This document shows, piece by piece, positions 8,228 through 51,821 of a stretch of DNA of 64,000 nt (positions within the stretch are counted from its first letter, which is position 1; every line of letters starts with the position of its first letter). This stretch comes from Alphaproteobacteria bacterium (GTDB lineage Bacteria; Pseudomonadota; Alphaproteobacteria; CADEGL01): NCBI GenBank assembly GCA_026400755.1, contig JAPLOM010000063.1:77349-141348 (forward strand). Reading direction: 5' to 3'. The position numbers were made by a program, and so were the translations under genes. The notes under the pieces are model-generated. The model had not been told where the DNA came from, ran no database searches, and saw only the letters and a program-made list of their open reading frames with translations.

Positions 8228-8237
8228 GGGCGCGGCT

Positions 8238-11440: not shown

Positions 11441-11442
11441 CC

Positions 11443-12144
11443 GTGGTCCGTCCTGTCGAATACGCCCGCCGCAGTTTCCTCCACCGCCGCTTGGCCGAGC
11501 ATGGCGCGGTCTTCGCCGAGATCGCGGGGGCGGCCGTGGCCGACCATTACGGCGGCGTGGACGGCGAGACCGTGGGCGCGGCCCAGCTTGCGCTGGCCGA
11601 CCTGTCGCCGCTGCCGCGCATCGGCTTCAAAGGTAAGAACGCCATCAATTGGCTGATCAGCCAGGGTATACGCGGTCTGCAAGCCGACAACGCAGTGGAC
11701 CTGCAGTATGACGGCGTGCGCGCCGCGCGGCTGGCGCCGACCGAAGGCCTCGTGCTGTGCGATCTGGAGGCCAAGAGCGGCACCTGCGCGCGTCTGGCCG
11801 ACGCCTGGTCGTTGGAATCGGCGCCGCTTTGCTTCCTGGTACCGCGTGCGGACAGCCACTATTGGTTCGCGGTCACCGGCGCGCGCGCTGCGGAAATGTT
11901 CGCCAAAATCTGCGGCGTCGATCTCAGGCCCGACCGCTTTGCCGAGGGTGCCATCGCGCAGACCTCGGTCGCGCGCAACAACGCCATCATCATCCGGCGC
12001 GATCTGGGCCGTACCTTGGCCTACGACGTCCTGGGCGACAGTGCGTCCGCCGATTACATGTGGCGCTGCCTGTTGGATGCCATGGCGGAGTTCGGCGGCA
12101 AGCCCGCGGGCCTGTCCGCGCTGCGCCGCCTCGCGGCGGAATAG
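11443..12144 (+). CDS. mgdD: N-methylglutamate dehydrogenase subunit D (SoxG-like)
   Basis: A 233-residue homologue of the sarcosine oxidase gamma subunit. The GTG at 11443 lies 2 nt after the mgdC stop and is followed by VRPVEYARRSFLHRRLAEHG. The body (LADLSPLPRIGFKGKNAINWL, then ADAWSLESAPLCFLVPRADSHYW) resembles the YgfZ/GcvT-like fold of this subunit. Its role in the tetramer is structural and contributes to the channel between active sites. The stop is immediately followed, with no spacer, by the ATG of the XRE-cupin regulator at 12145, so the regulator is probably translated from the same message. Confidence 0.82.
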   Translation: MVRPVEYARRSFLHRRLAEHGAVFAEIAGAAVADHYGGVDGETVGAAQLALADLSPLPRIGFKGKNAINWLISQGIRGLQADNAVDLQYDGVRAARLAPTEGLVLCDLEAKSGTCARLADAWSLESAPLCFLVPRADSHYWFAVTGARAAEMFAKICGVDLRPDRFAEGAIAQTSVARNNAIIIRRDLGRTLAYDVLGDSASADYMWRCLLDAMAEFGGKPAGLSALRRLAAE

Positions 12145-12792
12145 ATGGCGGCCAAGGGCAAGCGCGCGGCGGTGGGCAAGAAGGCGAAGCCCACGCCTGC
12201 GCCGGCCAATCACAGCGGCGTGCTGGAAGCAGCCATTGGGCGCGAGGTTTACACCTTCCGCCGCAAGCACGGCATGACGGTGGTCGATCTGGCGCGCTTG
12301 GCGAAATTGTCGCCCGGCATGCTGTCCAAGATCGAGAACGGCCTGACCTCGCCGTCCCTGGCCACCTTGCGCGCCTTGTCCACGGCGTTGGGCGTGCCGG
12401 TCACGGCCTTCTTCCGTCGGTTCGAGCAGCACACGGATGCCACCTTCGTGCGCGCGGGCGAGGGGCTAGTGATCGAGCGGCGCGGCACGCGGGTGGGGCA
12501 CCAGTACCGGCTGCTCGGCGCCGGTGTGCGCAAGAGCGTGGCGGTCGAGCCATACCTGATCACGCTGACCGAGCAGTCCGAGGTCTTCCCGCTGTTCCAG
12601 CATGACAGCGTCGAGTTCCTGTATGTGCTGGAGGGGCGGATGCGCTACCGGCACGGCGACAAGACCTATCTGCTGGGTCCCGGCGATTCGCTGTTCTTTG
12701 ACGCCAACGCCCCCCATGGACCGGACGAATTGATCGCCCTCCCGATCCGCTTCCTGGCCATCATTTCCCAGACGCCCGGCGCGGAGGACTAG
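12145..12792 (+). CDS. XRE-family regulator with cupin sensor domain
   Basis: A 215-residue transcription factor. A basic, disordered N-terminus (about 1-25, rich in Lys, Ala and Pro) precedes a helix-turn-helix of XRE type (about 30-85: RRKHGMTVVDLARLAKLSP, then GMLSKIENGLTSPSLATL) and a C-terminal cupin (about 130-210) containing QHDSVEFLYVLEGRMRYRHG and GDSLFFDANAPHGP. Cupin regulators of this kind usually bind a small ligand. Its position, directly abutting mgdD and 73 nt before mgsA, suggests control of the N-methylglutamate pathway by methylamine, an intermediate, or nitrogen status. The ligand is unknown. Confidence 0.9.
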   Translation: MAAKGKRAAVGKKAKPTPAPANHSGVLEAAIGREVYTFRRKHGMTVVDLARLAKLSPGMLSKIENGLTSPSLATLRALSTALGVPVTAFFRRFEQHTDATFVRAGEGLVIERRGTRVGHQYRLLGAGVRKSVAVEPYLITLTEQSEVFPLFQHDSVEFLYVLEGRMRYRHGDKTYLLGPGDSLFFDANAPHGPDELIALPIRFLAIISQTPGAED

Positions 12793-12865
12793 TTCCGAAA
12801 ATTCATAGCAGGAAAATTTATTCACTCCTATAATTGGGCTGTTTTCGGGCTTGGCGGAGCGTGAA
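12793..12865 (+). promoter_or_regulatory. Candidate internal promoter and operator upstream of mgsA
   Basis: This spacer is AT-rich compared with its surroundings. TATAAT occurs at 12829-12834, but no convincing -35 box lies 17 nt upstream. Two copies of GAAAATT at 12797-12803 and 12812-12818 are 15 bp apart and could be half-sites for the XRE regulator encoded just upstream. A second transcription start for mgsABC would fit, but this is only a sequence-pattern inference. Confidence 0.35.
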
Positions 12866-13765
12866 ATGTGCGGAATCGTTGGTCTTTTCCTTAAAAATCC
12901 AGCCCTGCGGCCGGAGCTTGGCACCCACGTCTCGACCATGTTGGCCGAGATGACCTCGCGCGGGCCGGACAGCGCGGGCATTGCCGTCTATCACCGCCCG
13001 ACCGTGGACGGCGCCTCGAAGTTCACCCTGTTCCACGACGACGACGCCTATCCATGGGACGAGATGACCGGCCGCCTGGGCGAGGCGCTGGGCGTCGAGA
13101 GTGACCTGGAGAAGCGCGCGAAGCACGTTGTCCTGGCCGTGCAGTCGGCCGAGGATCCGGTGCGCGCATGGCTGGCCGCCAACTGCCCCGGCGTGCGCGT
13201 CATGGGCTACGGCACGCTGATGGAGGTCTACAAGGAGAAAGGCCTGCCGGCCGACGTGCTGCGCCGCCACGGCATCGCGCAGATGGAGGGTACCCACGCC
13301 ATCGGCCATACGCGCATGGCGACCGAGAGCATCGTGACGACGGAGCATTCGCATCCGTTCACGGCCGCGCCGGACATGTGCCTGGTTCACAATGGTTCGC
13401 TGTCGAATCACAACCGCCTGCGCCAGTGGCTCAAGCGCCGGGGCCAAAGCTTTGACACCGATAACGACAGCGAAGTGGCCGCGCGCTATTTCGCCTTTCG
13501 TATGTCCGAGGGCGCCTCGCTGGAAGAAGCGATGGAAGCGGGCCTCAAGGACCTGGACGGATTTTTCACCTTCACCATGGGTACGCGCGACGGTTTTGCC
13601 GTGCTGCGCGACGGCATTGCCTGCAAGCCGGCCGTTTTGGCCGAGACGGACGATTGGGTTGCCATGGGGTCGGAGTATCGCGCGCTCGCCCATCTGCCCG
13701 GCGTGGACAAGGCGACCATCTGGGAGCCTAAGCCCGCCGTCGTCTACACCTGGACGCTGAACTAG
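12866..13765 (+). CDS. mgsA: N-methylglutamate synthase subunit A (class II glutamine amidotransferase)
   Basis: A 299-residue Ntn-type glutaminase domain homologous to the N-terminus of GltB and to GlxB. The start MCGIVGLFL gives an N-terminal Cys nucleophile after Met removal. An in-frame upstream TTG would bury that Cys, which decides the ATG at 12866. Other family landmarks are TSRGPDSAGIAVY, GHTRMATES and CLVHNGSLSNHNRLR. In N-methylglutamate synthase this subunit handles the gamma-glutamyl side of gamma-glutamylmethylamide, releasing methylamine to the synthase subunit. It is 5 nt upstream of mgsB. GlxB of unrelated glutamate-synthase-like clusters is the alternative name, but gmaS nearby favours Mgs. 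Confidence 0.9.
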   Translation: MCGIVGLFLKNPALRPELGTHVSTMLAEMTSRGPDSAGIAVYHRPTVDGASKFTLFHDDDAYPWDEMTGRLGEALGVESDLEKRAKHVVLAVQSAEDPVRAWLAANCPGVRVMGYGTLMEVYKEKGLPADVLRRHGIAQMEGTHAIGHTRMATESIVTTEHSHPFTAAPDMCLVHNGSLSNHNRLRQWLKRRGQSFDTDNDSEVAARYFAFRMSEGASLEEAMEAGLKDLDGFFTFTMGTRDGFAVLRDGIACKPAVLAETDDWVAMGSEYRALAHLPGVDKATIWEPKPAVVYTWTLN

Positions 13766-13770
13766 CCGCC

Positions 13771-14454
13771 ATGATCGACGTCGATATCGCCGGCACCCAG
13801 GTACGCGCGCTGAACCAACGGCTTCACGCCTTGCCCAAGGACACCAATGAGCGCGCATGGCGCGTGCTGAATCCCATGGGCGCGCATTCCATCGCGGCAG
13901 GCCTGACCCAGCCCATCGAGGTCCGCGTGGAAGGCCATGTCGGCTATTACTGCGCGGGCATGAACAAGGAAGCGACCGTGGTGGTCGAAGGCCACTGCGG
14001 CTGGGGCTTCGGCGAAAACATCATGAGCGGCCTGGTGCGCGTCACCGGCAACGCCTCGCAGGCCGTCGGCGCGTCAGGCCATGGTGGCATGGTGATTGTG
14101 GACGGTGACGCAGGCGCACGCTGCGCCATCGGGCTCAAGGGCGCGGACATTGTCGTGGGCGGCTCGGTCGGGCATTTCAGCGCCTTCATGGCCCAGGCCG
14201 GAAGCCTCGTCGTGTTGGGCGACGCGGGCGACAACCTCGGTGACTCGCTTTATGAGGCGCGGCTCTATGTGCGCGGCTCGGTGGCCAGCCTGGGCGCCGA
14301 CTGCGTCGAGAAAAAGATGACGCCGCACCATCTGCAGAAGCTGGAGCGAATCTTGGCCAAGGCCGGCATGACGGCCGATCCCAAATCCTTCCGCCGCTAC
14401 GGCTCGGCCCGGAAGCTCTACAACTTCCACGCCGATCACGCCGACGCCTACTGA
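13771..14454 (+). CDS. mgsB: N-methylglutamate synthase subunit B (GXGXG / GltB C-terminal domain)
   Basis: A 227-residue beta-helix protein matching the C-terminal domain of glutamate synthase large subunits. The repeating Gly pattern is visible in EGHCGWGFGENIMSG, GNASQAVGASGHGGMVIVDG and GGSVGHFSAFM. In GltB this domain is structural; here it is a separate subunit, as in known MgsABC and GlxBCD sets. The gene lies 5 nt after mgsA and 10 nt before mgsC, with normal length. Confidence 0.9.
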   Translation: MIDVDIAGTQVRALNQRLHALPKDTNERAWRVLNPMGAHSIAAGLTQPIEVRVEGHVGYYCAGMNKEATVVVEGHCGWGFGENIMSGLVRVTGNASQAVGASGHGGMVIVDGDAGARCAIGLKGADIVVGGSVGHFSAFMAQAGSLVVLGDAGDNLGDSLYEARLYVRGSVASLGADCVEKKMTPHHLQKLERILAKAGMTADPKSFRRYGSARKLYNFHADHADAY

Positions 14455-14464
14455 GGAAGCCGCC

Positions 14465-15787
14465 ATGACGGTCGACCCGCGCAATCTGCGCCCCTCCGCC
14501 AGTTTCACGCCGCACCATATCGCCGAGATCCACCGCGCGGCCGACGAAGGCATCTACGAAATCCGCGGCTTCGGCGCCAAGCGGCGCATGCCGACCTTCG
14601 ACGACCTGGTGCTGCTGGGCGCGTCGGTGTCGCGCTATCCCTTAGAAGGCTATCGCGAGACCTGCGGAACCAACGTCGTGATCGGCGGCCGCTTCGCGAA
14701 GAAGCCGATCGAGATCAAGATTCCCATCACCATCGCGGGCATGAGCTTCGGCGCGCTCGGCGTCAACGTGAAGGAAGCCATTGGCAAGGCCTGCACCGCG
14801 ATGGGCACCAGCTCGACCACCGGCGACGGCGGCATGTGCGAGGAGGAGCGGCAGGCCTCCAAGCTTCTCGTCTATCAGGTGCTGCCCTCGCGCTACGGCC
14901 TGAACCCGGACGATCTGCGTCGCGCGGACGCGATCGAGGTGGTGATCGGCCAGGGGGCCAAGCCCGGCGGCGGCGGCATGTTGTTGGGCCAGAAGATCAG
15001 CCCGCGCATCGCCAAGATGCGCACGTTGCCCGAAGGCATCGACCAGCGCAGCGCCTCGCGCCATCCCGACTGGACGGGCCCCGACGACCTGACCATCAAG
15101 ATCGAGGAGCTGCGCGAGATCACCGATTGGGAGAAGCCGATCTACGTCAAGGTCGGCGCGACGCGCACCTATTACGACACCCAGTTGGCCGTGAAGGCCG
15201 GCGCCGACGCCATCGTGCTCGACGGCATGCAAGGCGGTACGGGCGCCACCCAGGATGTCTTCATCGAGAATGTGGGCATCCCGACCTTGCCCGCGCTGCG
15301 GCTGGCCGTGCAGGCGCTGCAGGAATTGGATATGCACCGCAAGGTGCAGCTCATCATCTCGGGCGGCATCCGCACGGGCGCCGACGTGGCCAAGGCGCTG
15401 GCCATGGGGGCCGACGCGGTTTCCATCGGCACCTCGGCCTTGATCGCGCTGGGCTGCAACAAGCCGGTCCATCTCGAGGATTACGAGGCGCTGGGCACCG
15501 CACCCGGCTATTGCCACCACTGCCACACCGGGCGTTGTCCGGTCGGCGTCACCACCCAGGACCCGAAGCTGCAGGAGCGTCTGACCGCGGATCACGGCGC
15601 ACGGCTCCTACGCAACTATCTGTCGGTGATGACCTTGGAATTGCAGACCATGGCGCGCGCCTGCGGCAAGAACCATGTGCTCAATCTGGAGCCGGAGGAT
15701 TTGGTCGCGCTGACGGTCGAGGCCGCGGCCATGGCGGGCGTGCCGCTGGCGGGAACGAACTGGATACCGGGCAGGGGGACTTACTAA
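14465..15787 (+). CDS. mgsC: N-methylglutamate synthase subunit C (FMN-binding glutamate synthase domain)
   Basis: A 440-residue FMN/Fe-S subunit homologous to the central and FMN domains of GltB. Landmarks: ITIAGMSFGALGVNVKEAIG near residue 90; EVVIGQGAKPGGGGMLLGQKI near 158; GADAIVLDGMQGGTGATQD near 245; the 3Fe-4S cysteine cluster YCHHCHTGRCPVGVTTQDP near 345. In Mgs this subunit forms N-methylglutamate from methylamine and an activated glutamate or 2-oxoglutarate-derived moiety. It follows mgsB by 10 nt and precedes gmaS by 52 nt. Domain order and length match known MgsC/GlxD proteins. Confidence 0.92.
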   Translation: MTVDPRNLRPSASFTPHHIAEIHRAADEGIYEIRGFGAKRRMPTFDDLVLLGASVSRYPLEGYRETCGTNVVIGGRFAKKPIEIKIPITIAGMSFGALGVNVKEAIGKACTAMGTSSTTGDGGMCEEERQASKLLVYQVLPSRYGLNPDDLRRADAIEVVIGQGAKPGGGGMLLGQKISPRIAKMRTLPEGIDQRSASRHPDWTGPDDLTIKIEELREITDWEKPIYVKVGATRTYYDTQLAVKAGADAIVLDGMQGGTGATQDVFIENVGIPTLPALRLAVQALQELDMHRKVQLIISGGIRTGADVAKALAMGADAVSIGTSALIALGCNKPVHLEDYEALGTAPGYCHHCHTGRCPVGVTTQDPKLQERLTADHGARLLRNYLSVMTLELQTMARACGKNHVLNLEPEDLVALTVEAAAMAGVPLAGTNWIPGRGTY

Positions 15788-15791
15788 ACTC

Positions 15792-15817
15792 GCCCCGATA
15801 AAAAGAGCGAACGGGGC
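15792..15817 (+). other. Short inverted repeat between mgsC and gmaS
   Basis: GCCCCG at 15792-15797 is matched by CGGGGC at 15812-15817, a perfect 6-bp arm pair with a 14-nt A-rich loop. It starts 5 nt after the mgsC stop and no T-run follows. It may modulate read-through or mRNA stability between mgsC and gmaS. The pairing is weak, so this is tentative. Confidence 0.3.
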
Positions 15818-15839
15818 ATCACGTCACAGGGGGACGACC

Positions 15840-17147
15840 ATGGCGGCCGATCTGGCGAAGATCGCGAAGCAGCGGAAGATTCAATATTTCCTCATCAGCT
15901 ACGTCGACCTGTTCGGCGCCTTGCGCGCCAAGCTGGTGCCGGCGCGTGCGATCGGCGAGATGCAAAAGGCAGGGGCGGGCTTTGCTGGCTTCGCCACCTG
16001 GCTCGACCTGACGCCAGCCGATTCCGACATGTTCGCGGTGCCCGATCCCGACAGTCTGATGGTGCTGCCGTGGAAGCGTGAGGTCGGCTGGCTGGCCGCC
16101 GACATCGTGATGGATGGCAAGCCTGTTCCCCACGGGCCGCGCCACGTCCTGAAACAGCAGGTCGCCAAGGCGGCCAAGTTGGGCCACCGCATGAAGACGG
16201 GCGTGGAGTGCGAGTTCTTCCTGACCACGCCGGACGGCCGCGCGGTGGGCGACGAGAAGGACACGCAGTCCAAGCCCTGCTACGACCAGTCCGCGTTGAT
16301 GCGCCGCTACGACGTCATCACCGAGATCTGCGATGCGATGATCGAGCTGGGCTGGGAGCCGTACCAGAACGACCATGAGGACGCGAACGGCCAGTTCGAG
16401 ATGAACTGGACCTACACAGACGCGCTCGTCACCGCCGACCGGCACGTCTTCTTCAAGTACATGGTCAAGAGCATCGCCGAGGAGCATGGCTTGCGCGCGA
16501 CCTTCATGCCCAAGCCGTTCCTCAATCTGACCGGCAGCGGCTGCCACGCCCATGTCTCGGTGTGGGACAAGACGGGCAAGAAGAACCTGTTCCACGATCC
16601 GCGCGGCGAGCTGGGCCTATCGAAGCTGGCCTATAACTTCCTCGGCGGCATCATGCATTCCGCCGAATCGCTCTGCGCGCTCTTCAACCCGACGGTCAAC
16701 AGCTACAAGCGCATCAACGCGCCGGTCACGCTCTCGGGCGCCACTTGGTCGCCTAATGCCGTTACCTACGGCGGCAACAACCGCACCCACATGGTGCGCA
16801 TCCCGGAGGCCGGGCGGTTCGAACTGCGCCTGATGGACGGCGCGGCCAATCCCTATCTGTTGCAAGCGGGCGTCTTGGCTGCGGGCCTCGACGGCGTCAC
16901 CAACCGGCGCGACCCCGGCAAGCGGCTCGACATCAACATGTACAAGGACGGCCACACGCTGAAGAACGTGCGCCGCTTGCCGCTCAACATGCTGGATGCC
17001 GTCCGCGCCTTTGAGGGCTCGAAGACCTTGCGCGCGGCGTTGGGCGCCGAGTTCGCCGACAGTTATACGAAGCTCAAGATGGACGAATGGCGCCGCTACG
17101 CTGGCTCGCTCAGCCAGTGGGAGTTGGATAACACGCTCGACTGCTGA
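15840..17147 (+). CDS. gmaS: Gamma-glutamylmethylamide synthetase
   Basis: A 435-residue glutamine-synthetase-fold enzyme that ligates methylamine to glutamate using ATP, the entry step of the N-methylglutamate pathway. The N-terminal half has YFLISYVDLFGALRAKLVP and GAGFAGFATWLDLTPADSDM. The catalytic core shows ECEFFL, YQNDHEDANGQFEMNW, FMPKPFLNLTGSGCHAHVS, NPTVNSYKRINAP, GGNNRTHMVRIPEAGRFELR and the end WELDNTLD. These segments, especially the DLTPADSDMFAVPDPDS region, are characteristic of GmaS rather than housekeeping GlnA. It has a good ribosome site (AGGGGG) and follows mgsABC. Together with mgdABCD it appears to complete the pathway. Confidence 0.95.
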   Translation: MAADLAKIAKQRKIQYFLISYVDLFGALRAKLVPARAIGEMQKAGAGFAGFATWLDLTPADSDMFAVPDPDSLMVLPWKREVGWLAADIVMDGKPVPHGPRHVLKQQVAKAAKLGHRMKTGVECEFFLTTPDGRAVGDEKDTQSKPCYDQSALMRRYDVITEICDAMIELGWEPYQNDHEDANGQFEMNWTYTDALVTADRHVFFKYMVKSIAEEHGLRATFMPKPFLNLTGSGCHAHVSVWDKTGKKNLFHDPRGELGLSKLAYNFLGGIMHSAESLCALFNPTVNSYKRINAPVTLSGATWSPNAVTYGGNNRTHMVRIPEAGRFELRLMDGAANPYLLQAGVLAAGLDGVTNRRDPGKRLDINMYKDGHTLKNVRRLPLNMLDAVRAFEGSKTLRAALGAEFADSYTKLKMDEWRRYAGSLSQWELDNTLDC

Positions 17148-27010: not shown

Positions 27011-29386
27011 CTAGACGGCGCGGTCAACGACCGTGGCTGGATAGCGCTCACCGAAAATCTCCACCTCGAACTTTGTGCCCGTCTTGGCCGCGGGACCGTC
27101 CACGCGCGCCAGCACCATGCATGTGCCGTCGGCCTGGGCATACGCGCCCGAGGTGACGAAGCCGGCGTCCTTGCCGTCCTTCACCACGATCTCGCCGCCC
27201 CACGGGTTGGTGCCCGCGCCCTGGATGGACAGAAGCGTCATGCGCCGGCTCTTGCCGTTGGCGCGCGAGGCCATGGCGCCATGGCCGACGAAGCCGGACT
27301 TCGATTTGTCGACGAGGTGAGCGACGCCCGCTTCGTCCACGCCGTTATCGTGCGCCATGTCGGCGCCCCAGCGCGGCAGGCCGGCCTCGACGCGCAGCGT
27401 CTCGTAGGCGCGCATGCCGATGTCGTTGAGCCCGTGAGAGGCGCCGGCTTCGACGAGGCGCTGATAGACGCCCAGCGCATTCTCCAGATAGGTGTGCACC
27501 TCCCACGCCGGGCTGGCGATGCCGTCCACGCGCAGAAGGCGCACGGTCGCCATGCCGATATTCGGCTTGCGGTACTCGTTCACTTTGACGTCCGCCAGGG
27601 ATTGGCCGGTCGCGGCTTCGAGGATGCGGGTCGATTCGGGGCCCGCGACGACGAAGGCGCCACGCGCTGCGGTCACGTTCTGGATTTCGACGCCGCTGGC
27701 CGGCGCATGGCCGCGCAGCCAGTCGTGATCGCGCTGCTCGCTCTCGGACCAGCCGGTGACGATGAAGCGCTCCGGCGTGATGCGCGACACCGACATCAGT
27801 GCGGCGACGCCGCCCTTTTCAGTCAGCATCGGCACCGTCGCGGCCTCGCCGTCCTTCGCGGGCAGGCGCCCGGCGGACAGATTGTCCAGATAGGCCTTCG
27901 CGCCGGAGCCCAACACCTCGAACACCGACATGGAGGAGAGGTCCAGAATGCCCGCTTTCTCGCGCACGCTGCGCACTTCCGCCGCGACATGCGGGAACCA
28001 GTTGGTGCGGCCGTAGCTCAGCACGTCCTTGCCTTCGACGCCGTCGGGCGCGAACCAGTTGGGCACTTCCCAGCCGTTACGCACGCCGTACACCGCGCCT
28101 TTCGCCGCGAGGCGGTCGTAAAGCGGGCTGGTGCGGGCCAAGCGGCCGCGGCTGGTTTCGCCGTGCGGGTAATAGACCGGCGAGGAATAGGCGTGGCCCG
28201 CGTTTAGGCGGTCGATGACATAGGGTTTGGTGGCATAGGTGCCGAAACGGCGCACGTCGACCGGCGACAGGTCCATGCTGGGCTCGCCGTTGATGATCCA
28301 CTCGGCGACGTACTTGGACAGGCCCGCTTGCAGGAATGCACCGGGCAGGCCGCAGAAGACGAAGTAGCCCTTCAAGCCGTGCGCGGGCCCGACGAGCGCG
28401 CGCAGGTCGGGCGTGCGCCCCGTCGGGCCGTTCACCACGGTTTGGACGCCGAGCTTCTTCAAGAGGGGGATCATCTCCGCCGTCTCTTCCAGGTATTCGG
28501 CCGAGCGCTCCAGGTCGGGCGCGAACAGCTCCTGGCCGAACTCCTTCGGAATACCCTGGGGCCACGGAAACACGGCGTGCTTTTCATAGCAGGCGATCAG
28601 GAAACCGTTGCGCTCCTGCCGCGCATACATCGGTACGTTCAGATCGCGCAGGACGGGAAGCTCGGTCGACAAGCTCGCCAATTCATCGCTCTGCTCGGTC
28701 ACCAGATAGGCGTGCTCCATGGCCGTCACGGGCAGGTAATAGCCCAGCATCGCGGAGATTTCGGCACCCCAGAAACCCGTGCAGTTGAGGATCGTCTCGC
28801 AGGTGATCTCGCCCTTGTCGGTCGTGATGCGCCATTCGTCCTTTCCGGAACGCGCGATGGAGAGGACGCGGGTGTGGCGATTGACCTCGGCACCCAGCGC
28901 GCGCGCAGCCTTGGCGAAGGCGTTGGTGGTCTGTGACGGATCGGTATAGCCGTCGCCTGGGACATGCAGAGCGCCGACGGTCTGGCGCAGTTCCAACAGC
29001 GGCCAAAGGGATTTCACCTGCTGCGGGCCGACCAGGTCGGCCTCGATGCCCAGCATGCGCGCGGTCGCCAGGAAGCGCTTGTACTCGTCCATCTCGTCCT
29101 TCGAGCGCGCGAGGCGCAGGCTGCCGCAGGCATGGACGTTGACCGGCGAATCCGCTTCGTCGCCGATCTTTTGATAGAGCTGGAAGCTCTCGTGATGGAT
29201 GCGCGAGAAGAACGCGCTTTCCGAGAAGTAGGGGACTTGGCCTGCCGCATGCCACGTGGAGCCGGCCGTCAGCTCGGCCTTCTCGATCAGCACGACATCC
29301 GTGCAGCCCTGCTTGGCCAGCTGATACAGCGTGCTGCAACCGATGATGCCGCCGCCGATGACGACGACGCGGGCATGGCTCTTCAT
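27011..29386 (-). CDS. Dimethylglycine dehydrogenase-like flavoprotein, copy 2
   Basis: A 791-residue paralogue of the next gene, starting MKSHARVVVIGGGIIGCSTL at ATG 29386 behind GGGGAGAG; an in-frame ATG at 29425 would run into the AT-rich promoter region and is rejected. It keeps the GSTWHAAGQ His motif, DVRRFGTYATKPYVIDRL and the GcvT half with GVRNGWEVPNWF, EKAGILDLSSMSVFEVLG and HLVDKSKSGFVGHG. Differences from copy 1 in the active-site loop after the His (VPYFSESAFFSRIHHES versus TPHYTTSYTTGRVFLDS) suggest a different amine substrate. It is first in the operon and divergent from the IclR regulator, which probably controls it. Confidence 0.92.
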   Translation of the reverse strand: MKSHARVVVIGGGIIGCSTLYQLAKQGCTDVVLIEKAELTAGSTWHAAGQVPYFSESAFFSRIHHESFQLYQKIGDEADSPVNVHACGSLRLARSKDEMDEYKRFLATARMLGIEADLVGPQQVKSLWPLLELRQTVGALHVPGDGYTDPSQTTNAFAKAARALGAEVNRHTRVLSIARSGKDEWRITTDKGEITCETILNCTGFWGAEISAMLGYYLPVTAMEHAYLVTEQSDELASLSTELPVLRDLNVPMYARQERNGFLIACYEKHAVFPWPQGIPKEFGQELFAPDLERSAEYLEETAEMIPLLKKLGVQTVVNGPTGRTPDLRALVGPAHGLKGYFVFCGLPGAFLQAGLSKYVAEWIINGEPSMDLSPVDVRRFGTYATKPYVIDRLNAGHAYSSPVYYPHGETSRGRLARTSPLYDRLAAKGAVYGVRNGWEVPNWFAPDGVEGKDVLSYGRTNWFPHVAAEVRSVREKAGILDLSSMSVFEVLGSGAKAYLDNLSAGRLPAKDGEAATVPMLTEKGGVAALMSVSRITPERFIVTGWSESEQRDHDWLRGHAPASGVEIQNVTAARGAFVVAGPESTRILEAATGQSLADVKVNEYRKPNIGMATVRLLRVDGIASPAWEVHTYLENALGVYQRLVEAGASHGLNDIGMRAYETLRVEAGLPRWGADMAHDNGVDEAGVAHLVDKSKSGFVGHGAMASRANGKSRRMTLLSIQGAGTNPWGGEIVVKDGKDAGFVTSGAYAQADGTCMVLARVDGPAAKTGTKFEVEIFGERYPATVVDRAV

Positions 29387-29477: not shown

Positions 29478-30317
29478 ATGGTCCAAAGCCGCGACGCAGC
29501 GCCCCCCAAGCCCGCGAAAACCGACACTGCTGTGACGCGCGCGGCGCGCAGCTTCAAGGGCGTGTTCGATCCGCATTTTGAAGGCCGCGCCATCGCGGAG
29601 AAAAGCGACCAGCGGCTTTTCATCAATTCGGTCGAGAAGGCGCTGCGGGTGCTCTATGCCTTCGACGATTCGCGCAAGTCACTCACCATCGCCAGCATCG
29701 CGGAATCGACCAAACTGGGACGCAGCGGCGCGCAGCGTTTCGTCTACACGCTGGAAAAGCTCGGCTATCTGCGCAAGGACCCGGAGACGCGGCGCTATCG
29801 CCTGTCGCCGCGCGTGCTCGACTTCGCCGCCGCCTATATGCGGACCGACGAACTGGCGCCGCTTCTGATCGAGCATTTCTCCGAGCTCAACCACGCCTGC
29901 GGCGAATCCGTGACGTTGAGCGAGCCGGACGGAACAGAGATCGTCATCGTCACGCGCCTGGCCAGCCGGCATATGTTCGGCGCGCATTTCTTCACGGGCA
30001 TGCGTTCGCGCATCTTCTGCGCTTCGGCGGGCCGCGCCATCCTGGCTTTTCTGCCCGCGGCGCGCGCCATTGAGATCATCGAGCGCTCCGAGCGCCCGGC
30101 CTTCACCAAGCACACGATCACCGACAAGGATGCGATCTTGGCCGAGTTGACCAAGGTGCGGCGCGACGGGTTTTGCATCGCCGAGCAGGAATCGGTGCCG
30201 GATACGATTTCCATCGGCGTGCCCGTGTTCGACTACACGCGCCTGCCGGTGGCGGCGGTCAACATTTTCGTGCCCCTGTCGCGCTGGCCGCGCGCGCGCA
30301 TGGTGCGCGAACTGTAG
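29478..30317 (+). CDS. IclR-family transcriptional regulator
   Basis: A 279-residue IclR regulator. A basic N-terminal extension of about 45 residues precedes the winged helix-turn-helix (about 48-110: FINSVEKALRVLYAFDDS, AESTKLGRSGAQRFVYTLEK and LGYLRKDPETRRYRLSPRVL). The effector-binding domain follows (about 125-279) with ASRHMFGAHFFTGMRSRIFC and ASAGRAILAFLP. The C-terminus stops at PLSRWPRARMVREL, somewhat short of the usual final helix. It is divergent from the DMGDH-like operon and 50 nt upstream of two enoyl-CoA hydratase genes, so either or both may be targets. Confidence 0.92.
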   Translation: MVQSRDAAPPKPAKTDTAVTRAARSFKGVFDPHFEGRAIAEKSDQRLFINSVEKALRVLYAFDDSRKSLTIASIAESTKLGRSGAQRFVYTLEKLGYLRKDPETRRYRLSPRVLDFAAAYMRTDELAPLLIEHFSELNHACGESVTLSEPDGTEIVIVTRLASRHMFGAHFFTGMRSRIFCASAGRAILAFLPAARAIEIIERSERPAFTKHTITDKDAILAELTKVRRDGFCIAEQESVPDTISIGVPVFDYTRLPVAAVNIFVPLSRWPRARMVREL

Positions 30318-30367: not shown

Positions 30368-31132
30368 ATGCCCGACAGCCTCCAGGTGTCGAACCGAGGC
30401 CCGGTGCGCGTTCTGACGCTGAACCGGCCCAATGTTCTGAACGCGCTCGACGAGGAGCTGCGCGGCGCCATCGCCAGCGAGATCCGTTCGGCGCACACCG
30501 ACAAGTCGGTTCGCGCCATCGTCATCACCGGCAACGGCCGCGCCTTCTGCTCGGGGCAGGATTTGAACGAAGCCAAGCAGCAGAACGCCGAGACGGCCGA
30601 GCGCTGGCAGCGCACCTGGACCGATTTCACCCACTCGTTCCTCGAGTGCCACAAGCCGATCATCGCCGCGGTCAACGGCGTGTCGGCCGGCGGTGGTTTC
30701 CTGATGGCGGCTCTGGCCGACATCAAGGTGATGGCGCGCCCCGCGCGCTTCGTGATGGCCGAGATCAACATCGGCCTGCCGTCGATCATCGGCTCGTTCC
30801 TGCTGTTCAAGCAAATCTTTCTGTCGCGCACCATCGACATCGTGCTGAACGGCCGCGACGTCCCCTCGCACGAAGCCAAGGTCATCGGTTTCGTCCATGA
30901 AGTGGTCGAGCCTGAGGATGTGCTGAAGCGCGCGATCGAGCTGGGCCAAGAGCTGGCGACTAAGTATCCGACGCCGATGCGCCTGACGATCAAGCGCATG
31001 CGCACCGTCCTGCTCAAGGATTGGGACGAGCTGGAGCGCGCGGCTCAGCGCTATCAGGGCGAAGCGGTCCGCAGTGGCGAGCCGCAGAAGGTCCAAGCCA
31101 AGTTTCTCGCCGACCGCGCCGCCCGGCGCTAG
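30368..31132 (+). CDS. Enoyl-CoA hydratase/isomerase family protein
   Basis: A 254-residue crotonase-fold protein. CoA-binding and oxyanion-hole segments are visible: RVLTLNRPNVLNALDEEL near residue 14, NGRAFCSGQDLNE near 55, and AAVNGVSAGGGFLMAALADI near 98. Of the two catalytic Glu of classical hydratases, the first (in GGGxE) is Leu here, while the second is retained in FVMAEINIGLPS. That favours isomerase or another crotonase reaction over simple hydration. The ATG at 30368 has GGGGAG upstream; the longer in-frame reading overlaps the IclR gene. It is 30 nt before the second hydratase-like gene. Confidence 0.9.
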   Translation: MPDSLQVSNRGPVRVLTLNRPNVLNALDEELRGAIASEIRSAHTDKSVRAIVITGNGRAFCSGQDLNEAKQQNAETAERWQRTWTDFTHSFLECHKPIIAAVNGVSAGGGFLMAALADIKVMARPARFVMAEINIGLPSIIGSFLLFKQIFLSRTIDIVLNGRDVPSHEAKVIGFVHEVVEPEDVLKRAIELGQELATKYPTPMRLTIKRMRTVLLKDWDELERAAQRYQGEAVRSGEPQKVQAKFLADRAARR

Positions 31133-31162
31133 GCCCGACTCCCGCGATCAGAGGCGAACACG

Positions 31163-32245
31163 ATGTACAAATTCATCAAGACCCGCATCGAGGACCAGAT
31201 CGGTATCCTGACGCTCGATCGTCCCGAAACCATCAACGGCTGGCACCAGCCGATGCGGCTGGAAGTCAGCGATGCGCTGAAGAAGTTCAACGCCGACTCC
31301 AAGGTCCGCGCGATCATCATCACCGGCGCGGGCGACCGCGCCTGGTCGTCGGGCCAGGATCTGGCCGAGACCATGGTCATCAAGGGCGGTGAAGAAGGCG
31401 TCAAGTGGGCCAATTACTGGGTCGAGTTCTATGACGTGCTGCGCAGCATGGAGAAGGCCGTCGTCGCGGCGCTGAACGGCGTGGCCGCCGGCTCCGCCTA
31501 CCAGTACGCGATGATGTGTGACGTGCGCGTCGGCCATTCCGGATCGCGCATGGGCCAGCCCGAGATCAACTCCGGCATCACCAGCACGACCGGCCCGTGG
31601 ATCATGTATGACCGTATCGGCCGCTCGCGCACCATCGAGCTGACCCTGCGCGGCCGTATGATGAACGGCGACGAGGCGCACGAGATCGGCCTGATCCACT
31701 ATCTGGTCAAGCCGGACCAGGTGATGGCGAAGGCGATGGAGGTCGCCAAGGTCTTGGCCAGCAAGGCGCCGTTGGCGATGAAGCTGACCAAGCAGCGCTT
31801 CCGCGAGATGACCGAGGCAGGATTCCGCGAGACGACCCAGGCCAATATCGAGATCAGCAAGGAAAACTACGCTTCGGGCGAGCCGCAGAAGGCCATGAAG
31901 GAGTTCTTCGAGGAGCGCGCGCGCCGCAAGGCCGAGCGCGAGAAGGCGGCCGGCAAGTCTTCCGCCAAGCCGGCCAAGAAGTCCGCGCCCAAGAAGGCCG
32001 CCAAGCCCGTCGCGAAGAAAGCAAAGCCCGTCGCCAAGAAGGCGAAGCCCGCTGCCAAGAAAGCCAAGGCGAAGCCCGCCAAGAAGGCGAAGGCCAAGCC
32101 GGCGAAGAAAAAGGCCGCACCGAAGCGCAGGGCGGCACCGAAGGCCGCGAAGCGCGGCGCGACGAAACGTGCGGCGGCCAAGCGCCCCGCGCGGCGTTCG
32201 CCCGCCCGCCGGCCCGCCAAGCGGAAGCCGACCCGCCGCCGCTGA
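31163..32245 (+). CDS. Enoyl-CoA hydratase-family protein with a histone H1-like C-terminal tail
   Basis: A 360-residue fusion. Residues 1 to about 250 are a crotonase domain: GILTLDRPETINGWHQPM, AWSSGQDLAETM, ALNGVAAGSAYQYAMMCD and SRMGQPEINSG. The first catalytic Glu position appears to be Tyr, while the second Glu (QPEI) is kept. From about residue 263 to the end there are some 98 residues made almost wholly of Lys, Ala, Pro and Arg, in AKPAKK/AKKAKP-type repeats that turn Arg-rich at the C-terminus. This resembles bacterial H1-like (Hc1/AlgP-type) nucleoid proteins. The tail is in frame with the enzyme and has no internal start, so it is a genuine fusion on this sequence. It would be expected to bind nucleic acid or other polyanions. 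Confidence 0.9.
   Translation: MYKFIKTRIEDQIGILTLDRPETINGWHQPMRLEVSDALKKFNADSKVRAIIITGAGDRAWSSGQDLAETMVIKGGEEGVKWANYWVEFYDVLRSMEKAVVAALNGVAAGSAYQYAMMCDVRVGHSGSRMGQPEINSGITSTTGPWIMYDRIGRSRTIELTLRGRMMNGDEAHEIGLIHYLVKPDQVMAKAMEVAKVLASKAPLAMKLTKQRFREMTEAGFRETTQANIEISKENYASGEPQKAMKEFFEERARRKAEREKAAGKSSAKPAKKSAPKKAAKPVAKKAKPVAKKAKPAAKKAKAKPAKKAKAKPAKKKAAPKRRAAPKAAKRGATKRAAAKRPARRSPARRPAKRKPTRRR
31949..32245 (+). repeat. Low-complexity repeat encoding the Lys/Ala/Pro/Arg tail
   Basis: This stretch repeats short units such as AAGCCCGCCAAGAAGGCGAA and variants, encoding AKPAKK-like hexads. The 5' two thirds use Lys codons and the last third shifts to Arg codons (RAAPKAAKRGATKRAAAKRP onwards). Such tracts expand and contract by slippage, so length variation between strains is expected. 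The stop at 32243-32245 is followed by a terminator. Confidence 0.8.
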
Positions 32246-32269
32246 GCGCCGGCTGGTTACTGAATAAGA

Positions 32270-32307
32270 AACCCTCTCCGCCAGACCGGTGGAGAGGGTT
32301 TTTCTTT
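32270..32307 (+). terminator. Rho-independent terminator after the H1-tailed hydratase gene
   Basis: AACCCTCTCC at 32270-32279 pairs perfectly with GGAGAGGGTT at 32291-32300, an additional GCC/GGT pairing extends the stem inward, and TTTCTTT follows. It is the strongest classical terminator in the window. It ends the IclR-hydratase transcription unit 24 nt after the stop and before the flavoprotein gene at 32350. Confidence 0.92.
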
Positions 32308-32349
32308 GGCGTTCTATCAAATGCGTCACCCCGGCAGGGAGGGACACCC

Positions 32350-34389
32350 ATGGGCCAGTTCGATGCGCTGCTGAAGCCGCTCAAGCTTCGCAACCTCGTC
32401 ATCCGTAACCGGGTGATGAGCACGGCGCATGCCGCCGGTTTCGGCCAAGACGGCGTGCCCGGCGATCGCTACATCCGCTACCATGAAGAGAAGGCCAAGG
32501 GCGGTATCGGCCTGACCATCTTCGGCGGCTCGTCCTCGGTCGCCATCGATTCGCCCGGCTACATGCGCCAGCTCTATCTGGGCGACGACGTTATCGTGCC
32601 TCACTTCCAGGATTTCGCCGCGCGCATCCATCGCCACGGCGCGGCGCTGATGTGCCAGATCACCCATATCGGCCGGAAGATCGGCTGGGACAACGGACAC
32701 TGGCTCTGGCCCGTGGGACCGTCGCGCCTGCACGAGCCGCTCCATCGCACCTTTCCGAAGGAGATGGAGGACTGGGACATCAAGCGCACGGTCAAGGCTT
32801 ACGGAAGCGCGGCCCTGCGCTGCAAGCAAGGGCATTTGGACGGCGTCCAGATGCTGGGCGCGGGCGGTCACCTGATCGACCAATTCTGGAGCCCGCTCGG
32901 CAATGCCCGCACGGACGCCTATGGCGGCCCACTCGAGAACCGCATGCGTTATGGGCTCGAGGTGATCGAGGAGGTGCGTAAGCAGGTGGGTGACGACTAC
33001 ATCGTCGGCCTGCGGATGGTCGGCGATGAGATGATCGAGGGCGGGTTGACGCCCGAGGAGTGCGTCACCATCGCCACCACCTATGCCAAGACGGGGATGC
33101 TGGATTACCTCGACATCGTGGCCAGCACGACCTTCAATTTGGAGCACCGCACGCGTCACATCCCGGGCATGTGGGCGCCCATCGCGCCGTACCTGCATCT
33201 GGCGGGCGCGATCAAGGCCGAGGTGGACATCCCCATCTTCCACGCCACGCGCGTGCTCGATGTGCAGACCGCCGCGCGCGCGATCGAGGAAGGTCACATG
33301 GACATGGTGGGCATGACGCGTGCCCACTTCGCCGATCCGCACATTGTGAAGAAGCTGACCGAAGGGCGGGTGGACGACATCCGCCAATGCATCGGGGCCA
33401 GCTATTGCAACGATCGTTCCTCCACGGGTAAGGAAGTGGTCTGCATCCAGAACGCGGCGACCGGCAAGGAAGCGATCTTGCCCCACGTCGTCGCCAGGAC
33501 GCCCGCCCGCAAGACCGTGGTGGTCGCGGGCGGTGGGCCCGGCGGGCTCGAGGCCGCGCGCGTGGCGGCCGAGCGCGGTCATCGCGTTGTGTTGTTCGAG
33601 GCGTCGGATCGCGTCGGCGGCCAGATCAACATCGCCAGCAAGGCCACTTGGCGCGAGGCGCTTTCGGGCATCCCGCGCTGGCTCGACCAGCAGGTGCGCA
33701 AGTTAGGCGTGGATGTCCGGCTCGGCGCCGAGGCCACCAAGGCGCGCGTGCTGGCCGAGAAGCCCGATTACGTCGTGGTCGCGACGGGCGGCACGCCCGC
33801 CATCGGCCGCTTCAAGGGCATGGAGTTGGCCGTCAGCACGTGGGACGTGCTGGAGGGCCGTGCGGCACCGGGCGAGAACGTGCTGATCTTCGACGACAAC
33901 GGCGACCACCAGGCCGCCTCGGCGGCCGAGGTGCTGGCCCAGCGCGGCGCCAAGGTGGAACTGGTCACGCCTGACCGTATGGCCATGGCGCGCATCGGCT
34001 ACAACAACCTCGGCGTGCATCTGCGCGAGCTGCACCGGATGGGCGTGGTGATCACCACCGACATGCGCCTGGTCAACGTCTACCGCGAGGACAACACGCT
34101 GATCGCGGTCCTGCGCGACGAGCACTCCAATGCCGAGGAAGAGCGCGCAGTCGATCAGGTGGTCGCCGAATACGGCGTCAAGCCGCGCGACGGTCTTTAT
34201 TGGGACCTGCGGCCGCTGTCACGCAATCTGGGCGAGGTCGATCCCGACCGCTTCGCTGCCGGCCTGCCGCAGGAGACGGTGACGAACCCGGCGGGCGCGT
34301 TCGCGCTCTATCGTGTCGGGGACGCGGTCGCGGGGCGGAACGTCTATGCCGCCATCCACGATTCACTACGGCTGGCCAAGGATTTCTAG
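32350..34389 (+). CDS. Trimethylamine dehydrogenase / N-methylproline demethylase-like flavoprotein
   Basis: A 679-residue enzyme with an old-yellow-enzyme FMN barrel (1-340: PLKLRNLVIRNRVMSTAHAA, then MCQITHIGRKIGW, then GNARTDAYGGPLENRMRYGL), a short Fe-S segment, and a C-terminal FAD/NAD Rossmann pair (KTVVVAGGGPGGLEAARVAAE near 392; NVLIFDDNGDHQAASAAEVL near 513). In trimethylamine dehydrogenase the cluster uses four Cys spaced Cx2Cx2Cx12C. Here Cys347, Cys353 and Cys365 are present but the second position is Ala350. My recollection is that N-methylproline (stachydrine) demethylases share this feature, which would fit the methylated-amine setting, but the substrate is not proven. 2,4-dienoyl-CoA reductase is less likely. 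Confidence 0.88.
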   Translation: MGQFDALLKPLKLRNLVIRNRVMSTAHAAGFGQDGVPGDRYIRYHEEKAKGGIGLTIFGGSSSVAIDSPGYMRQLYLGDDVIVPHFQDFAARIHRHGAALMCQITHIGRKIGWDNGHWLWPVGPSRLHEPLHRTFPKEMEDWDIKRTVKAYGSAALRCKQGHLDGVQMLGAGGHLIDQFWSPLGNARTDAYGGPLENRMRYGLEVIEEVRKQVGDDYIVGLRMVGDEMIEGGLTPEECVTIATTYAKTGMLDYLDIVASTTFNLEHRTRHIPGMWAPIAPYLHLAGAIKAEVDIPIFHATRVLDVQTAARAIEEGHMDMVGMTRAHFADPHIVKKLTEGRVDDIRQCIGASYCNDRSSTGKEVVCIQNAATGKEAILPHVVARTPARKTVVVAGGGPGGLEAARVAAERGHRVVLFEASDRVGGQINIASKATWREALSGIPRWLDQQVRKLGVDVRLGAEATKARVLAEKPDYVVVATGGTPAIGRFKGMELAVSTWDVLEGRAAPGENVLIFDDNGDHQAASAAEVLAQRGAKVELVTPDRMAMARIGYNNLGVHLRELHRMGVVITTDMRLVNVYREDNTLIAVLRDEHSNAEEERAVDQVVAEYGVKPRDGLYWDLRPLSRNLGEVDPDRFAAGLPQETVTNPAGAFALYRVGDAVAGRNVYAAIHDSLRLAKDF

Positions 34390-34392: not shown

Positions 34393-36804
34393 CTATTCGG
34401 CGGCGGCGGCCTTTTTTGCATCCCGTCCACCGTCGCCCGGCAGGCGCACGCCGTCGAACGGCACGCCCACCACCGTGGCCGCGCAGCTTTTGCCCAGGAT
34501 CTCGACCGTGAGTTTGCGCCCGGGCGCGGCCAATTCAGCCGGCAAGGATGCAAACGCGCAGCTTTTGCCGTGGCGATCGTGTCCGCCTGAAGCGACCAAT
34601 CCCACCGCGCGATCGCCGTCTAGCACGGCATCGTTGAGATAAGGGTCGGCATCGCCTCCCTCGACAGCCAAGCACACCACCCGCCGTGCGGATTTGCTCG
34701 CTGTATCGTGCTTTTCATCGATGAGACGCACGAATCCCGCCTCGGCGACCGTCGTGGTTGTGTCGAAATCCCAGCCTTCGCGCGGGAATCCGGCCTCGAG
34801 CTGCAAGGCTTCCTGCGCGCGCAGTCCGACATCGCCGAGGCCGTGAGCCGCACCCGCCGACATCAACGCGTCGTATAGCGGTGCGAGGGAGGGGGCGGGG
34901 ACATGCAGTTCCCAGCCGTCCTCTCCGAACGCAGTGAATCGCAGCGCCAGGACGCGGGCCATGCCCAGATCGATCGCGCGCGCAGTACCCCACGGAAACG
35001 AATCCTCGGACAATGTTCCGCCCGCTGCGCTCTCTAGAATTTCCCGCGCGCGCGGCCCAGCTAGAAGAAGCGATCCCATCTGCTCAGTACGATTGCGCAA
35101 AGATGTGTCCGCATCGCGCAGCAGGTTGCGCCACAACCAATCGAAGTGCCGCACCTCGTGCTCGGCCGGTCCCATCAGGCGGAAGCGCTCGGCATCCAGA
35201 CGCACGACCATCAGTAACGCCGCGATACCGCCTTTGGGTGTGAGGAACGGCATGAAGCGCACCTCGCCGTCGCGTGCCGGCAAGATGCCCGCGGACAGGC
35301 CGGCCAGGGCTTTCGCCGCGCCTTTACCGACGAGTTCAAAGACCGAGCGGCCGGTGCGGTCGAGCAGACCCGCGCCTTCGCGCACGCGCCGGCATTCCGC
35401 GTCCACGTGCCGCGCCCAATCGGGCCGGCCGAAGCGTGACGTTTCCGTCGGCTCGGTGCCCTCGGGCGCGAACCACAGCGGCGTTTCCCAACCGTTGCGC
35501 GCACCGAACAGGGCGCGCTTCGCGCGCTGGCGTTCGTAAAGCGGGCCGGTCTTGCCGAGCCGGCCGGAGCCGCGTTCGCCATGGGGATAGTCGATGGCGC
35601 CCGCGAATTTGTGGCCCACGCGCACGACGGCGTAGGTGAATTCCTTGGTGGCATAGGGGCCGTAGCGGCGCACGTCGATGGGGGCGGGGTCCAGGCTGGT
35701 CTCGCCCTCGGCGATCCATTCGGCGATCACGCCGGTCGCGCCCGACTGCATGATGCCGGCGGAGAAACCCGCGGCCATGAAGAAGTTGCGCAGGCCCGGC
35801 ACCGGCCCCACCAATGGTGCGTGGTCTGGCGTGCGGCTGGTGGGGGCGTTGTAGACCATCTTGATGCCGAGTTCGCCCAACAGGGGAACGCGGGCGATAG
35901 CGCGGTCGACGAAATCTTGTGACCGCTCCCAATGCGGCGGCAGAACCTCGCGGCCGAAAGCGGGCGGAATGCCGTCGATGCCCCAGAATTCGGGTTCGTG
36001 CTCGTAGACGCCGGACAGAAGCCCCTTGCCCTCCTGCCGCACGTTGAAGCCGCCAAGCGGGTCTCGCAGTGTGGGCAGCTCGCGCGACAAGGCCGCGATC
36101 AGGGGCGAGCTTTCCGTCACCAGATGCTGGTGCAGAAAAATGACGAAAGGCAGCTTCAGGCCGACCAGCGCCGCCACCTCGGGCGCCCACATGCCGGCCG
36201 CGTTGACGACGATCTCGGCCGTCAGCTCGCCCTTGTCCGTCGTGATGCGCCATTCGCCGGTGGGAAGATGCTCGAGCGCGGTGACTTTGGTGTTGGTGCG
36301 AATCTTGGCGCCGTGCTGCCGCGCCAACGTGGCCATGGCGTAGGTCGCGCTCGACGGATCGGCGCTGCCGCAGCCGGGCGTGAAGGCACCGCCCAGTACG
36401 TCGTGCAGTTCGATGAAGGGGAAGAGGGCCTTGATCTCCTTGAGGCCGATCAGCTCCATGTCGACGCCTAGCGACTTGGCCTTCGCGTAGGCGCGGCGAT
36501 GTTCGACCATGTGATCGGGAACAGTAGCGAGCCGGATGCTGCCGGCCTCGTGGAAGCCAATTGGATGGCCCATCTCTGTGGCCAGCGTCTTGTAGAGCTC
36601 GGTCGTGGCCTTTTGCACGCGTGTCCAGAAGGCGCTGCTGGAATAGTGCGAAAGATTGCCCGCGGCGTGCCAGGTGGCGCCTGCGGTCAGTTCGGTCTTT
36701 TCCAAAAGGACGAGGTCGGTCCAGCCGCGCTTGGCCAGATGATAGAGGATTCCGCAGCCGACAATGCCGCCGCCGATGATGGCCACCCGTGCGTGAGTCG
36801 TCAT
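34393..36804 (-). CDS. Dimethylglycine dehydrogenase-like flavoprotein, copy 3
   Basis: An 803-residue third paralogue, on the minus strand and convergent with the flavoprotein before it (3 nt between stops). It begins MTTHARVAIIGGGIVGCGIL and keeps GATWHAAGN, the His expected for covalent FAD, DVRRYGPYATKEFTYAVV, and the GcvT-like half with YPHGERGSGRLGKTGPLYER, GARNGWETPLWFAPEGTEP and LRAQEALQLEAGFPREGW. It ends with an extra basic tail, RLPGDGGRDAKKAAAAE. It is divergent from the ABC-transporter operon across 178 nt, so transporter and enzyme may share regulation. Substrate is probably another N-methylated amino acid. Confidence 0.92.
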   Translation of the reverse strand: MTTHARVAIIGGGIVGCGILYHLAKRGWTDLVLLEKTELTAGATWHAAGNLSHYSSSAFWTRVQKATTELYKTLATEMGHPIGFHEAGSIRLATVPDHMVEHRRAYAKAKSLGVDMELIGLKEIKALFPFIELHDVLGGAFTPGCGSADPSSATYAMATLARQHGAKIRTNTKVTALEHLPTGEWRITTDKGELTAEIVVNAAGMWAPEVAALVGLKLPFVIFLHQHLVTESSPLIAALSRELPTLRDPLGGFNVRQEGKGLLSGVYEHEPEFWGIDGIPPAFGREVLPPHWERSQDFVDRAIARVPLLGELGIKMVYNAPTSRTPDHAPLVGPVPGLRNFFMAAGFSAGIMQSGATGVIAEWIAEGETSLDPAPIDVRRYGPYATKEFTYAVVRVGHKFAGAIDYPHGERGSGRLGKTGPLYERQRAKRALFGARNGWETPLWFAPEGTEPTETSRFGRPDWARHVDAECRRVREGAGLLDRTGRSVFELVGKGAAKALAGLSAGILPARDGEVRFMPFLTPKGGIAALLMVVRLDAERFRLMGPAEHEVRHFDWLWRNLLRDADTSLRNRTEQMGSLLLAGPRAREILESAAGGTLSEDSFPWGTARAIDLGMARVLALRFTAFGEDGWELHVPAPSLAPLYDALMSAGAAHGLGDVGLRAQEALQLEAGFPREGWDFDTTTTVAEAGFVRLIDEKHDTASKSARRVVCLAVEGGDADPYLNDAVLDGDRAVGLVASGGHDRHGKSCAFASLPAELAAPGRKLTVEILGKSCAATVVGVPFDGVRLPGDGGRDAKKAAAAE

Positions 36805-50894: not shown

Positions 50895-51821
50895 TCAGGC
50901 TTCGGGTGGCCTCACGGGCTCGGACACCAGCCTGTGCGCGGCGCGGGCCCGGACGGCCTCGCGGTGGCCGATATAGAGGACCGCGGCGATGATGATGGCG
51001 GCGCCTATGGGGGTCCAGATGTCGGGCACTTCGCTGAATAGGAAATAGCTGGCCACGGCGGCCAGAGGCAGTTGCAGGTACTCCAGCGGCACGACCACGG
51101 AGGTTTCCGCGACCGTGAGCGCGCGCGAGACGGCGATGTGCCCGAGCGTTCCCGTCGCGGCCAAGGTGAAGACCAGGATCAGCGCGGTCCACGTCGGCGT
51201 CTGCCAGACGAAGAGGGTCGGAATGAGCGTGGCCGGCGTCAGCATGATGAACATGTAGCCGACGATCACGGTCGGCGATTCCGTGCGCGACATGACGCGC
51301 GACAGGATGATGGCGCTGGCCCACGTGGCGGCGTTGATCAGCACATAGAGTGCGGCTGTATCGAACACGGCGATGCCGGGCCGGATGATGACCATGGCGC
51401 CGACGAAGCCGAAGAAGACGGCCGTCCAGCGCCGGACGCCGACTTTCTCGCGCAGGATCAGCGCAGCCAGCATGGTGGCGAACAGGGGCGCCGTGAAACC
51501 CAGCGACACGGCCTCGGTGATCGGCAACAGCTTGACCGCGTAGATCCACATCAGCATGGACACGAACATCGCCGCGGCGCGCATGAAATAGAGGCTTGGC
51601 CGGCCCATTTTCATGCCCTTGAAACCGACCTTGGCGATAAAGGGAATGAATAGAATCGCCGCGAAGAAACAGCGCAGGAACAGGAGTTCGATGGGTGGCA
51701 GTTCCAGCGAGATGGGACGGATCAGGATTGTGTTGAGCGCCCAGCAGACGGCCGCGCCAGCCATCCACAGGATGCCCTCGATGGGCGCCGGCAGGCTGGG
51801 CATCCAGCGCCGTGTGTTCAT
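50895..51821 (-). CDS. DMT/EamA transporter, array member 9 (3'-most)
   Basis: A 308-residue membrane protein with ten predicted hydrophobic segments and two EamA repeats. Features shared with neighbours include RPISLELPPIELLFLRCFFAA, EKVGVRRWTAVFFGFVGAMV, VSRALTVAETSVVVPLEYLQ and YIGHREAVRARA. It carries the longest soluble C-terminal tail of the six-gene run (HRLVSEPVRPPEA). Its ATG overlaps the previous gene's stop by 4 nt (51818-51821). Confidence 0.93.
   Translation of the reverse strand: MNTRRWMPSLPAPIEGILWMAGAAVCWALNTILIRPISLELPPIELLFLRCFFAAILFIPFIAKVGFKGMKMGRPSLYFMRAAAMFVSMLMWIYAVKLLPITEAVSLGFTAPLFATMLAALILREKVGVRRWTAVFFGFVGAMVIIRPGIAVFDTAALYVLINAATWASAIILSRVMSRTESPTVIVGYMFIMLTPATLIPTLFVWQTPTWTALILVFTLAATGTLGHIAVSRALTVAETSVVVPLEYLQLPLAAVASYFLFSEVPDIWTPIGAAIIIAAVLYIGHREAVRARAAHRLVSEPVRPPEA

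Follow-up and report, generated by a model that had tools for sequence, protein, structure and literature searches.

AlgP and PhaF carry the closest described tails, both KPAA-rich and disordered, with net charges of +55 and +35, respectively. DNA binding is established or presumed for these tails, which position polyphosphate and PHA granules. Fragments of the AlgP tail bind DNA, and deletion of the tail disturbs granule spacing. The C-terminal domain of PhaF binds DNA while natively unfolded. For Cobetia PhaC2, a PHA synthase with an HC2-like C-terminus, DNA binding has only been proposed. We describe here a long basic tail on a crotonase-family enzyme (ECH2), encoded in a 64,000-nucleotide stretch of an alphaproteobacterial genome that we refer to as the window.

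The ECH2 ORF (31163-32245, + strand) runs from ATG at 31163 to TGA at 32243-32245 in a single uninterrupted frame of 360 aa. The first-pass annotation, made from the window sequence, had described a crotonase fused in frame to a K/A/P/R tail from about residue 263, passing from Lys-rich to Arg-rich. The reading frame bears out the fusion, and we place the tail start close by, at about residue 259. The tail comprises 102 aa with a net charge of +45 (32 K, 32 A, 14 R, 13 P, and a single acidic residue, E); K, A, P and R make up 89% of it. The K/R counts in successive thirds are 12/1, 14/2, and 6/11, in agreement with the described Lys-to-Arg shift. Chance composition was ruled out by comparison with all other stretches of the window: any other stop-free stretch of 98 aa, in all six frames, contains at most 12 Lys, vs. 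32 in the tail. An antisense ORF of 399 aa (31148-32347) was rejected as the true gene, since both the homology to crotonases and the pattern of substitutions assign the coding frame to the + strand. Inside the Lys-rich part, at 31989-32110, the DNA contains tandem repeats of 21 and 24 nt. A hairpin with U-tract lies 22 bases past the stop codon, in a segment (32245-32320) with a predicted folding energy of -34.4 kcal/mol (z -4.4). This predicted terminator was not picked up by a pattern scanner; its position suits a message whose true 3′ end is the tail.

Features of the ECH2 locus, in window coordinates
Feature	Coordinates	Strand	Basis
Dimethylglycine-dehydrogenase-like gene (DMGDH-like), DAO + GCV_T	27011..29386	-	Human DMGDH 5l46, 523 bits
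IclR-family regulator, PcaR/PobR-like	29478..30317	+	PF01614, PF09339, TIGR02431; start codon chosen by eye
ECH1, upstream tandem crotonase without tail	30368..31132	+	PF00378, 1.2e-46
ECH2 crotonase core, residues 1-258 (Gln114, Glu134)	31163..31936	+	PF00378, 4kd6 alignment, pLDDT, Foldseek
Last core helix (model H240-265), running into tail	31880..31960	+	AlphaFold2 secondary structure, C-termini of relatives
Lys-rich tail part, residues 259-326, AKKAKP/PAAKK-type repeats	31937..32140	+	Translation, repeats, predicted disorder
Arg-rich tail end, residues 327-360, ending KPTRRR	32141..32242	+	K/R per third, charge-conserved block
Putative intrinsic terminator hairpin just 3′ of the fusion stop	32267..32303	+	Predicted fold
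Old-yellow-enzyme (OYE)/dienoyl-CoA-reductase-like flavoenzyme	32350..34389	+	PF00724, 3e-53
Second DMGDH-like gene	34393..36804	-	Identity to counterpart in a second genome of the genus

ECH2 belongs to the crotonase superfamily, having the crotonase fold and a PF00378 domain (residues 9-253, E 9.3e-44). The nearest solved structure is 4kd6, an enoyl-CoA hydratase/isomerase of Burkholderia graminis (E 6.7e-87), which is also the top Foldseek match (TMt 0.95, 53% identity). Alignment to the canonical crotonase 5z7r placed Gln114 at the position of the first catalytic Glu and Glu134 at that of the second; the spacing of 20 is the same as for Glu112/Glu132 of RdAcuH (PMC5651017). ECH2 thus lacks the pair of catalytic Glu that defines a canonical enoyl-CoA hydratase (Glu144 and Glu164 in the rat enzyme). 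The first-pass annotation had noted a missing first Glu with the second retained, and the residues agree; as a trait of the fusion, the observation did not stand. All 25 ECH2-type rows of our alignment, with or without tail, have Gln first and Glu second, as has 4kd6, and all 25 show the features by which we define the 4kd6-like ECH/isomerase subfamily (a GSA[FY]Q ... GQPEI pattern together with identity of about 50% or higher). Tail-less members have this Gln too, so the substitution belongs to the subfamily and is unrelated to the tail. Mutation of the first Glu in AcuH abolishes hydratase activity (PMC5651017); therefore canonical hydratase activity of ECH2 appears unlikely. What is generally known of the superfamily would fit a reaction that depends on one Glu (of isomerase, lyase, or decarboxylase kind).

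The gene order is IclR, ECH1, ECH2 with tail, and OYE-like flavoenzyme, with DMGDH-like genes flanking both sides. The flavoenzyme matches 6qkg, 1ps9, and histamine and trimethylamine dehydrogenases. The product of the second DMGDH-like gene is 84% identical to its counterpart in the second genome of the genus, which is about 41% identical to the protein encoded at 27011-29386. Elsewhere in the window (6986-17144), sarcosine-oxidase-like, glutamate-synthase-like, and type III glutamine-synthetase-like genes stand in a row, which we take to resemble the complete N-methylglutamate (methylamine) pathway; an XRE-cupin regulator with a basic N-terminus lies among them (12145-12789). The fusion gene lies in a region of N-methylated-amine catabolism, and it is plausible that the crotonase performs a CoA-linked step in breaking down an amino compound that is N-methylated or zwitterionic. 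At the fusion locus itself we saw no link to PHA or polyphosphate genes. Two other features of the window were recorded. The IclR regulator is ~18 residues shorter at its C-terminus than a near-identical counterpart at a second locus (..MVREL vs. ..MVRELAPAMMRAARAFSRSLGAP), and about eight EamA-type transporter paralogues, two of them checked with Pfam, lie nearly all adjacent at 50895-60977 (- strand).

Relatives of ECH2 were sought with core-only queries in the five searchable genomes of the taxonomic family: G000 (the window genome), G001 (a second species of the same genus), G002 (another genus), and G003 and G004 (a third genus). All five conserve the ECH1-ECH2 pair and have a DMGDH-like gene in its vicinity, and ECH1 adjoins ECH2 also in G130, of another alphaproteobacterial family. 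G130, together with G075 and G228, was among the six genomes that passed E 1e-92 in a sample of 289 from the class. The first-pass annotation had proposed a search for the same fusion in related genomes and for variation in tail length, and both were found. ECH2 has a tail of 98 aa in G001 (net +41), of 116 aa including a non-basic insert in G002 (net +43), and of 33 aa in G130 (net +15), so that orthologues carry 0, 33, 98, 102, or 116 tail residues. The tail sequence in G002 differs from that in G000, and the Lys-to-Arg gradient is present in all four tails. Since the in-frame fusion recurs in relatives, a sequencing frameshift is excluded. The orthologues of G003 and G004 sit in the same tandem and have no tail, ending ..ARKAAAAAKG and ..ARKAAAKKG; the tail thus appears to be dispensable for the reaction. 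G075 and G228 also have tail-less orthologues, and no tail was found on any of 11 plasmid homologues. A short basic stub (..ERAARKAAAKKG), located at the position of the last core helix, is the C-terminus of the tail-less relatives. The tree required at least two changes of tail state and no bootstrap tree had one change, in a small sample with few tailed genomes and with G130 only 74% complete. Probably, then, the tail arose at least twice on the same enzyme. Among the other crotonases of G000 and G001 that we examined, none had a comparable tail, and we rejected, for those examined, the idea that G000 crotonases generally bear poly-Lys tails. Three other proteins of the window genome have short Lys/Ala-rich N-terminal extensions: one of the RidA family (extension about 40 aa), one of the arginase family, and a hemerythrin (loci G000:C78:31273, C37:2827, and C53:14446), and a tiny ORF (G000:C8:12046; MAAKKKAKKPAKKKTAKKKTAKKKI) encodes little beyond an H1-like tail.

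The ECH2 tail could be the product of neutral low-complexity expansion, in which slippage of AAG/GCC-rich repeats lengthened the basic stub and the tail does nothing. The 21- and 24-nt tandem repeats, the obvious seed provided by the relatives' ..ARKAAAKKG end, the very variable length, and the absence of a tail in some relatives fit such an origin. Comparison of the G000 and G001 tails gave 44.5 synonymous and 13.5 nonsynonymous differences (dN/dS about 0.06, vs. 0.12 for the core). In the first half of the tail, repeats make the alignment uncertain, and amino-acid-guided alignment is biased toward identity; we therefore relied on the unambiguously aligned C-terminal block of 51 codons. This block has 29 nucleotide differences, distributed 4/3/22 over the codon positions; 6 amino acids are changed, and none of these changes alters the charge. 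Under neutrality, simulation predicted 16.2 amino-acid and 8.1 charge changes, and none of 5000 runs was as low on either count. The codon-position pattern, together with the frame common to independent genomes, rules out a frameshift or assembly artefact. Between G000 and G002, 44% of nonsynonymous tail sites differ, yet the net charges are +45 and +43; neutral drift to this divergence gave +18 (sd 4.5, maximum 34 in 2000 runs), a test that presumes one common tail, separate origins implying convergence to the same charge instead. The substitution pattern of the 51-codon block and the simulation indicate that the tail is translated and that its charge is under selection. Neutral expansion is unlikely: conservation of charge and of protein sequence is far above neutral expectation, the 51-codon test largely refutes it, and the tail appears at least twice on the tree. 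As judged from selection on its charge in relatives, the tail is a genuine and functional part of the protein.

A separate observation concerns synonymous divergence between G000 and G001, which is far higher in the tail (31937-32242; pS 0.57) than in the core (pS 0.16); the 22 third-position changes of the 51-codon block are part of it. Possible causes are gene conversion or slippage, selection that disfavors identical repeats, and homogenisation of the core.

AlphaFold2 was run on 18 sequences (window and genome-locus rows). pLDDT was 74-98 in the core, mostly above 85 for residues 1-260, and about 36-49 in the tail, mostly below 50 for residues 267-360, with the last helix extending to residue 265. 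The tail residues are thus predicted to be disordered. The tail had been likened to bacterial H1-like proteins, and in composition the likeness stands; membership in that family does not. No Pfam or NCBIfam profile, including HC2 and the H1-like models, matched the tail at E up to 10, in a search that HMMER filters and bias correction weaken for low-complexity sequence. Lacking an H1-like profile match, the tail is H1-like in composition only and ECH2 is not an H1-family protein. With PhaF and AlgP the tail shares length, predicted disorder, K/A/P-richness, and high positive charge. It lacks their regular 4-5-residue KPAA/AAKP repeats, having one AAKP and three KPAA/KPVA in 102 aa.

By analogy with those tails, we suggest that ECH2 is a catabolic crotonase, probably of isomerase or lyase type using one catalytic Glu, whose basic C-terminal stub has grown into a disordered polycationic anchor. 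As crotonases assemble into trimers or hexamers, a particle would present 3-6 tails (about +135 to +270) and could bind polyanions multivalently. Binding would hold the enzyme on the nucleoid, polyphosphate, or RNA, so that it would not move freely in the cytosol; we do not propose that the tail takes part in catalysis. Electrostatic anchoring of the oligomer to a polyanion (DNA, polyphosphate, or RNA) is the reading we favor, and we consider it somewhat probable. It follows the polyanion-binding role suggested by the first-pass annotation and draws on charge selection, predicted disorder, and the PhaF and AlgP analogues; the accompanying idea of a moonlighting regulator found no support. DNA, the likeliest single ligand by the same analogy, is put forward as main ligand only tentatively.

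Any polyanion, an acidic partner protein, the membrane, or solubility would be compatible with the conserved charge. The tail may bind an acidic partner enzyme or anionic membrane lipids, or enrich negatively charged acyl-CoA near the active site. Conservation of charge without conservation of sequence, and the position of the gene among amine-catabolic flavoenzymes, would suit such ligands; the size and composition of the tail match those of tails for which binding to DNA or to polyphosphate granules is known, and we regard this alternative as rather doubtful. A solubility or stability tag with no defined ligand seems improbable. The short basic extensions on RidA-like, arginase-family, and hemerythrin proteins could reflect a general habit of the proteome; however, ~100 residues at +45 are expected to bind cellular polyanions anyway, and sister genomes have orthologues and paralogues that lack the tail. 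More speculatively, and with very little expectation that it holds, polyanion anchoring might extend to a crotonase tethered to the nucleoid and working on acyl-CoA in the neighborhood of DNA. Such an enzyme would control acyl-CoA pools locally and also the acylation of lysines in nucleoid proteins or in its own Lys-rich tail, as a bacterial analogue, evolved independently, of the CDYL-like crotonase on chromatin. An equally speculative form of this reading is that several amine-catabolic enzymes of this genome (crotonase, RidA-like, arginase-family) are held on a polyanion scaffold as part of a broader pattern. The tail-less orthologues of sister genera are a ready natural control, and it can be tested directly here whether bacteria attach ordinary metabolic enzymes to DNA, RNA, or polyphosphate, and for what reason.

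The elements of the fusion are known separately; their combination on a crotonase found no match in the literature we searched, which is not proof of absence. The proteobacterial 4kd6 subfamily shares the core fold, about 50% identity, the Gln/Glu pair, and genes often beside those for IclR, polyamine-type ABC transporters, AMP-ligases, and, elsewhere in the subfamily, FAD-oxidoreductases; its proteins, in contrast, end at about residue 255-260, and neither 4kd6 nor any of the 11 plasmid homologues has a tail. Human CDY/CDYL (2gtr, 2fw2; found as structure matches) place the crotonase fold in a chromatin protein tethered by a chromodomain; however, identity of the crotonase domain is 18-22% and there is no evidence of common function. 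Cobetia PhaC2 is likewise an enzyme with a basic H1-like C-terminal extension, but it has another fold, and its extension matches HC2 at relaxed criteria whereas the ECH2 tail matches nothing. PhaF, a Pseudomonas phasin, has a disordered Lys/Ala/Pro-rich C-terminal tail on an oligomeric metabolic protein; its carrier is a phasin helix and no enzyme, and its repeats are regular. AlgP of P. aeruginosa has an H1-like KPAA/KPVA tail needed for polyphosphate granule spacing, carried as a regular repeat of 154 aa on a helical N-domain of unknown function that is no enzyme. Bacterial H1-like tails are thus known on nucleoid and granule proteins; here, such a tail is borne by a soluble CoA-dependent catabolic enzyme.
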